Source: Chloroflexota bacterium (GTDB lineage: Bacteria; Chloroflexota; Chloroflexia; Chloroheliales; Chloroheliaceae). From it: a stretch of DNA of 37,423 bases. The position numbers were made by a program, and so were the translations under genes. This document shows, in pieces, positions 3,496 to 4,721 of this stretch. A model generated the notes under the pieces. That model was not told where the DNA came from. It saw only the letters and a program-made list of their open reading frames with translations, and did not search any database. The stretch lies in assembly GCA_902812345.1 (NCBI GenBank), contig CADDZM010000013.1, positions 1-37,423 of the forward strand. Direction: 5' to 3'. Position 1 is the stretch's first letter, and each line of letters opens with the position of its first letter.

Positions 3496-3752
3496 TTTCC
3501 TCCCGGTTTTCTAAATTTTGTACCGTTTGTGCATAAACCCGATTATAAGAATTAAACCGGGCGCCGTCAAAACCGGCCCCAGGGCTGAACCGGTTACCGG
3601 CAACTGGCTTGCCAGCAGGAACCCGGTTTCTTGCGGGTTTTCCCATCCAACTTTAATTTCTTCTCGCTGAATACCGGCTACTGACTACCGGCTACTTTTT
3701 CATGGGGATAAGTCTGTGGGAAAAGATGTGGGTAAGTCGTGGATAAGATTCA
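3496..3752. promoter_or_regulatory. S9 gene leader and four phased DnaA-box-like sites
   Basis: No gene is seen here. Next to the S9 start lie several short GC-rich inverted repeats built on AACCGG/CCGGTT (about 3555-3645). A 14-bp unit TACCGGCTACTGAC is repeated 1.7 times at 3672-3695. At 3703-3746 four copies resembling the DnaA box TGTGGATAA occur in one orientation: TGGGGATAA (3703), TGTGGGAAA (3715), TGTGGGTAA (3727) and CGTGGATAA (3738). They start 12, 12 and 11 bases apart, about one helical turn. Three differ from consensus at one base, one at two. DnaA binding is inference; a degenerate tandem repeat is the alternative. Confidence 0.4.
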
Positions 3753-3781
3753 TTGACTCAACCGGGAAAGATTGTTACCAT
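3753..3781 (+). promoter_or_regulatory. Promoter of the candidate structured RNA
   Basis: TTGACT (3753-3758) and TACCAT (3776-3781) are separated by exactly 17 bases, a good sigma-70-type arrangement with five of six and four of six consensus matches. Predicted transcription starts near 3788. No plausible rightward gene follows before the terminator at 4040-4080, so the transcript is probably non-coding. Confidence 0.5.
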
Positions 3782-3787
3782 AGTGAT

Positions 3788-4082
3788 GTCAGAGTTGTTG
3801 AAGCCCACCGAAACGCAGCCAAAGGTTAGCAAGCAATCCGCAAGGAACGCCCTGACCGAGTTCTTCCGAGAGGTTGAGTTTTTCCGAAAAGCGGCCCGCA
3901 AGGGAACGCATCGTAAAAATTCTTCCGCCAGAGTTGGACAGGCCGGGCGCCAGTCCGCAAGGACTTCCACCGGTCCGGGTTCGCCCGTAAGGTCGAGCCG
4001 GTTGAGTAAGGCAGCGCTTCTATATACAAGGCTGGCACGAAATCCCGAAGAGCCGCAAGGTTTGTCGGGGTTTTTCGTTTTT
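3788..4082 (+). ncRNA. Candidate structured non-coding RNA of unknown class
   Basis: A GC-rich island of about 290 nt between two leftward genes, bracketed by a promoter and an intrinsic terminator. It holds four copies of CCGCAAGG (3838, 3896, 3955, 4053), each able to close a short stem with a GCAA (GNRA) tetraloop; the clearest is AGTCC-GCAA-GGACT. CGGG-TTCG-CCCG at 3976-3987 makes another tetraloop hairpin, enclosed by ACCGG (3969-3973) pairing with CCGGT (3998-4002). Two copies share the context GCAAGG(G)AACGC. I looked for hallmarks of RNase P RNA, tmRNA, SRP RNA, 5S rRNA, tRNA and common riboswitches and found none. A 153-codon open frame crosses it but has no RBS and an implausible composition. 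Class unknown. Confidence 0.5.
4040..4080 (+). terminator. Intrinsic terminator of the candidate RNA
   Basis: AAATCCCGA (4040-4048) pairs with TCGGGGTTT (4065-4073) including one G-U pair. Inside is a second stem, AGCC (4051-4054) with GGTT (4059-4062), closed by a GCAA tetraloop. TTTTTCGTTTTT follows. The gene order leaves no leftward use for it. Confidence 0.65.
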
Positions 4083-4175
4083 ATACTCTTTTCGTTTCAA
4101 GTTACAAAAACCTTTGCGCCTCAGATTTTTCTTCGGCTATTTCCCCGACCTGCGCCGAAAACATTTCAGGTCCAT

Positions 4176-4721
4176 TTAACCCTGGGCAGCCAGAAACACT
4201 TTGAGATAAGTTAAACCGGCCAGGGTGCTGCCTTCCCGGATTTCACCCTGCCGGGCCATTTCCTCGATTTCTTCAAGCCGGAAGGTTTTCACCTCCATAC
4301 CTGCTTCAGTCGGGTCGCGCCCCTGGGTGGCGGGCTTCAGGTCTTTAGCCAGAAAGACGGTGCATTTCTCGGTACTGAGGGAAGAATTGCTATTGAATTG
4401 GCCCAATCGCGTTAAATTCGAACTGGTAAATCTAATTTCTTCCTGTAACTCGCGTCTGGCAGCCTCTGCAGGGTCTTCCCCCTCATCCATCCCTCCCGCC
4501 GGGAATTCCCAGAATTTCTCCCGCAAGGGGTAGCGAAACTGGCGGACCATATAGTATTCCGAGCGTTCGTTGACAGCGATAAGCATAACACTGGGCCGGT
4601 ATTCCAGGTAAGTATAAAGCCTTTCCTGGCCGCCTGGCGGCACGATGCGGTCTTCCCAGAGCTTGAAATTCTGGTATTCGTATTTTTTGGTGTGCGAATT
4701 AGTAATCCATTTTTCCGGCAT
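4176..4721 (-). CDS. NUDIX hydrolase, ADP-ribose pyrophosphatase-like
   Basis: A 181-aa NUDIX enzyme that would hydrolyse nucleoside-diphosphate derivatives such as ADP-ribose with Mg2+. The Nudix box is at about residues 76-98: GGMDEGEDPAEAARRELQEE matches Gx5Ex7REUxEE, with all metal-binding Glu residues. The last conserved Gly of the box is replaced (EEIRF rather than EETGL), a small deviation. The N-terminal beta-sheet region (VMLIAVNERSEYYMVRQFRYP) and the position of the box resemble the ADP-ribose pyrophosphatase subgroup. The RBS is weak (AGGA about 15 bases upstream). It is leftward and separated from the S9 gene by the candidate RNA locus, so they are probably not co-transcribed. 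The exact substrate cannot be told. Confidence 0.9.
   Translation of the reverse strand: MPEKWITNSHTKKYEYQNFKLWEDRIVPPGGQERLYTYLEYRPSVMLIAVNERSEYYMVRQFRYPLREKFWEFPAGGMDEGEDPAEAARRELQEEIRFTSSNLTRLGQFNSNSSLSTEKCTVFLAKDLKPATQGRDPTEAGMEVKTFRLEEIEEMARQGEIREGSTLAGLTYLKVFLAAQG

Follow-up and report, generated by a model that had tools for sequence, protein, structure and literature searches.

On the plus strand of the window, by which we mean the whole stretch of Chloroflexota DNA analysed here (37,423 nt), a predicted RNA gene occupies positions 3753-4078. It is flanked by two genes on the minus strand, encoding an S9 peptidase and a NUDIX hydrolase, which bears out its earlier placement between two leftward genes. 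Subtilase, S9 peptidase, aldo/keto reductase and RNase J genes are found around this copy. The promoter proposed in the preliminary description is indeed present, together with an extended -10 TG, and is preceded by four DnaA-box-like 9-mers (Table 1).

Table 1. Predicted features of the RNA locus and its upstream array, in window coordinates.
Feature	Position	Strand	Remarks
DnaA-box-like 9-mer 1, TGGGGATAA	3703-3711	+	
DnaA-box-like 9-mer 2, TGTGGGAAA	3715-3723	+	
DnaA-box-like 9-mer 3, TGTGGGTAA	3727-3735	+	
DnaA-box-like 9-mer 4, CGTGGATAA	3738-3746	+	ends 6 bp before the -35
Promoter	3753-3781	+	-35 TTGACT, 17-bp spacer with extended -10 TG, -10 TACCAT
RNA gene body, class C (multi-arm)	3787-4078	+	predicted transcript of ~290 nt; exact ends inferred
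Outer stem P1, 5' side GUCAG	3788-3792	+	pairs with 4032-4036 CUGGC
P1b, 5' side UUGU	3795-3798	+	pairs with 4026-4029 ACAA
P2, 5' side GAAGC	3800-3804	+	pairs with 4016-4020 GCUUC; GAAGU/AYUUC in other copies
P3, 5' side CAGCC	3816-3820	+	pairs with 4000-4004 GGUUG; compensatory change in three pairs
Arm 1	3824-3857	+	GCAA loop 3840-3843; compensatory change in four stem pairs
Internal arm, CCCGCAAGGG hairpin	3889-3910	+	loop 3898-3901
Internal arm, UCCGCAAGGA hairpin	3952-3965	+	loop 3957-3960
Terminator hairpin	4042-4078	+	conserved cap AGCCGCAAGGUUUG, then U-rich tail

Folding of positions 3780-4085 on the plus strand resulted in a predicted energy of -116.1 kcal/mol (z -4.1), which none of 100 shuffled sequences reached, while the opposite strand of the locus folded no better than chance (z 0.06). 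The interval contains four CCGCAAGG units on the plus strand, compared with five on the plus and none on the minus strand of the entire 37.4 kb. All four are placed in GCAA hairpins by the predicted fold, in line with the GNRA loops suggested for them earlier, and two additional GNRA hairpins carry a GAGA and a GUAA loop. The latter takes the place of a TTCG hairpin that had been read from the sequence and does not appear in the fold: GGTTCG is paired there with CGAGCC. The terminator proposed at the end of the gene was recovered with an inner AGCC-GCAA-GGUU cap; a simple terminator scan did not flag it on the plus strand of this locus.

To define the distribution of the gene, we performed a DNA search with positions 3740-4100 in 61 genomes, which gave matches solely in the genome of the window and in two genomes of the same genus, Chloroflexi bacterium 54-19 and isolate RYN_336. 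The order to which they belong, formerly 54-19, has been renamed Ca. Chloroheliales (PMC10972752). Model R1, built from the promoter region on sequence alone, detected six paralogous loci in the genome of the window, six in strain 54-19 and three in RYN_336. The matched copies are whole genes with common ends and middles of varying length. Each of the six loci in the genome of the window has a counterpart in strain 54-19 that adjoins the same genes, and the ortholog pairs are 78-84% identical.

The copies fall into three classes. Class B forms one interrupted stem and is ~135 nt long, counted from close to the start up to the terminator, class A (~170 nt) folds into a three-way junction that bears two GCAA arms, and class C (235-470 nt), to which the window copy belongs, has more arms. 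Common to all are GCAA hairpins, the outer stem and a terminator cap that hardly varies, but the number of internal arms differs. Arms that are retained in its ortholog are missing from the window copy, which is shorter by ~113 nt, indicating that arms are gained or lost. As a separate observation, two different class C loci in strain 54-19 adjoin thioredoxin genes that are 78% identical (L100:4511-4837, L105:5906-6232, L106:6040-6375), which suggests that thioredoxin and RNA genes were duplicated jointly as one unit.

The preliminary description had seen the signature of no known RNA class, and the covariance models agree with this: Rfam 15 gave no match at the gathering score for the window or the other copies. 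At E-values up to 10, the sole match in the window was MEG3 on the opposite strand (13.7 bits), and ARAGORN detected no tmRNA or tRNA gene in the window. 6S RNA was rejected, with no match to the window copy (E up to 10) or to the other copies (E up to 1); it forms a single rod with a central bubble, whereas classes A and C are multi-branched.

To assess the conservation of the structure, we aligned the 12 copies of classes A and C after cutting out the variable internal arms of class C. The alignment supports a common structure of the outer stem (GUCAG/CUGRC), the inner stems, arm 1 and the terminator, and the same stems were given independently by RNAalifold. In total, 95.3% of the pair cells were paired in contrast to 32-46% in slid controls, a generous control since the tested structure was derived from the same sequences. 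Thirteen pairs were changed on both sides (6.7 in shuffles, 1-3 in the slid controls) and 30 cells were double-changed (9.5 in shuffles); as only three species contribute, paralogs account for this covariation no less than orthologs do. In class B alone, 10 of 44 pairs were double-changed among three sequences. All 15 copies keep the plus-strand terminator, whose stem shows compensatory changes, and its cap reads AGCCGCAAGGUUUG in 14 of them and GCCGAAAGG in the remaining one.

Fold z-scores ranged from -2.7 to -6.2 across all 15 copies and still from -1.2 to -4.3 for the bodies without the terminator. The antisense strands of the bodies were mostly near zero; class B was the exception, with a simple stem that folds stably on either strand. 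Homologous regions in related Chloroflexota thus exist and covary, and the proposal of a stand-alone structured RNA without an Rfam match is supported by sequence and fold evidence. The RNA gene is real and is predicted to encode a structured non-coding RNA of ~290 nt. No description of it was found in the open-access literature, and the locus represents a structured RNA family not described before. Membership in a multi-copy family, the variable number of arms and the conserved DnaA-box-like array at the promoter go beyond the preliminary description.

As far as searched, the family is confined to one genus of Ca. Chloroheliales. Model R2 identified no convincing member in 158 genomes of the class or 400 of the phylum. 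Its matches outside the genus (G094, G370, G422 and G004) either were driven by the terminator or were marginal, and such E-values are not remarkable in a search of hundreds of genomes; the family is absent from G004. A pattern that combines the terminator cap with a T-run behind it was matched in only two of the 400 phylum genomes, the window's own and G422. In viral contigs that matched the terminator or the 5' pattern, the remainder of the gene was absent.

Two of these genomes contain candidate RNA-like regions of their own. G422, from another Chloroflexota family, has a multi-copy gene of ~90 nt (L128:1405-1545, L135, L139 and L153; three full copies and a partial one). It resembles the window family in having several copies, a promoter (TTGACAA-17-TATTAT), a GNRA-capped hairpin and a terminator, here with the cap GCCGCAAGGUUU, but differs in its length, in an outer sequence that is unrelated and in that no DnaA-like array was seen. 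It had no Rfam match and was not found in eight relatives of its family; the shared terminator cap may reflect homology or coincidence. On the minus strand of the same genome, a stand-alone, strongly folding region (L096:714-960, z -5.5) has the same terminator cap, carries a TTGACTC-16/17-TATCGT promoter-like sequence and has no Rfam match either. A region on the minus strand of G370 (L097:1501-1690) combines a promoter-like sequence, a ATGTCAGA start, a folded body (z -4.2) and a GGCCGCAAGGUUU terminator, and in its predicted layout resembles the plan of the family.

A closer look at the promoter revealed a strictly kept arrangement. The promoter is strong and of the sigma-70 type. In 14 aligned copies the -35 is invariant and the -10 reads TACYAT, and all 15 copies carry four 9-mers spaced by 12, 12 and 11 bp. 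DnaA is the protein that starts DNA replication, and the pooled consensus of the 60 boxes, TGTGGATAA, equals the DnaA box as read on this strand. Individual boxes deviate from it, box 1 usually by one mismatch and boxes 2-4 usually by one to two. Matches to the box matrix are enriched in the dnaA flanks of the three genomes (7-8 per 3 kb vs 0.3 in shuffles). In 120 genomes, the sole match of R1 outside the genus with an E-value below 0.001 was found in G089, a member of another family (E 2.5e-4); it lies in the region upstream of dnaA, with the box part aligned. Judged from the sequence, the RNA gene and its DnaA-box promoter are well supported, and DnaA is the likely binder of the array.

The array might still be bound by another regulator whose site resembles a DnaA box, with the RNAs being stand-alone and regulatory all the same. 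Position-specific deviations are kept across copies in three of the four boxes (e.g. CGTGGATAA in box 4), as would be expected for a different protein, but the identity of the pooled consensus with the DnaA box, the richness of the dnaA flanks of the same genomes in matrix matches and the match of the promoter model in another family, where it falls on an oriC-type cluster that precedes dnaA, make this rather unlikely. With DnaA as the binder, the loci could mainly serve to titrate or inactivate the protein, comparable to datA or DARS, and the RNA would be a by-product or an aid in opening the site. The presence of six such sites in a genome, all with four phased boxes and stably positioned on the chromosome, would suit such a role. 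Titration requires neither an RNA structure, which is under strong selection here, nor a constant spacing between the boxes and a strictly conserved promoter, as found in all copies, and we consider this explanation distinctly unlikely.

Other explanations concern the RNA itself. In each of the three genomes, an M20 peptidase gene is located downstream of class A and reads in the same direction, as expected if the RNA were a cis-acting leader or riboswitch of the gene that follows. At the five remaining loci of the window's genome (the window copy, C223, C78, C43 and C189), however, the downstream gene is convergent, so that the RNA gene stands alone; a terminator ends every copy, and in the window's genome another gene even separates the class A copy from the M20 gene, which together make a leader very improbable. 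This intervening gene is restriction-system-like (MAVPSHTELFN...; L101:829-2100, C139) and is not found at this place in strain 54-19 or RYN_336. Several dispersed copies per genome with common ends also recall a mobile repeat of the MITE or REP type that folds by chance. This is hardly credible given that the positions are orthologous between species, that the copies diverge by class yet keep their pairs, that the conserved unit includes the promoter and that searches of the phage and plasmid collections found no copy. Finally, the window copy contains a long open frame (153 aa, 3753-4214), but the frame starts at the -35 hexamer, varies between copies that differ by whole arms and has no long equivalent in classes A and B; the probability of a short protein-coding gene is practically negligible.

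Several known systems share single traits with the family. CsrB, CsrC and RsmZ are sponge RNAs that stand alone and present many near-identical hairpins. By analogy, the window family would work like them as a stand-alone RNA with repeated hairpins. It differs in repeating a GCAA tetraloop on a CC-GG stem, where both G are paired in the predicted fold and no GGA is exposed in a loop. Moreover, CsrA (PF02599) was detected in none of five genomes examined, while the controls E. coli, B. subtilis and T. maritima were positive, which disfavours a Csr-type sponge. In E. coli, datA and DARS are dispersed chromosomal clusters of several DnaA boxes; DnaA-box-like clusters are likewise dispersed over the chromosome here, but each forms the upstream part of the promoter of a structured RNA. 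Chloroflexi-1 RNA (RF01698), listed for Chloroflexus aggregans, is also an orphan structured RNA of the phylum, but the Rfam 15 scans of the family copies gave no RF01698 match. The nearest published ideas that we found come from Caulobacter: predicted DnaA sites upstream of ncRNAs (PMC5988900) and CcnA of Caulobacter crescentus, a single gene at the origin that is presumed to be activated by CtrA (PMC8959179). In contrast to CcnA, the family described here comprises six genes at dispersed positions, each preceded by four phased boxes, and is unrelated in sequence.

Taken together, we consider it probable, on balance, that the loci form a genus-specific family of stand-alone regulatory RNAs with DnaA-responsive transcription, for which we propose a role as a trans-acting platform. 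DnaA would bind the array cooperatively, with one protomer per helical turn, and from its position just upstream of the -35 would raise transcription or time it with the replication cycle; the conservation of the boxes by itself does not tell activation from repression or titration. With regard to the partner and the effect of the RNA, we infer with less confidence that it may act in trans as a multivalent platform, whose repeated GCAA hairpins and invariant terminator cap would bind a protein or RNA partner. The recurrence of CC-GCAA-GG hairpins and the conservation of the cap suggest that both are putative binding sites, and six copies with added arms would provide more of them. Only tentatively do we extend this to a replication-linked RNA regulon, in which DnaA on four phased boxes would drive six multi-arm GCAA-hairpin RNAs whose valency evolves by gain and loss of arms.

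If true, this would be a new RNA family whose members are under one common promoter controlled by DnaA boxes. It would connect a set of RNAs with the initiation of replication in the Chloroflexota, a phylum in which little is known about small RNAs and the cell cycle, and the paralogs, differing in their number of arms, would offer a natural series that relates the valency of an RNA to its function.
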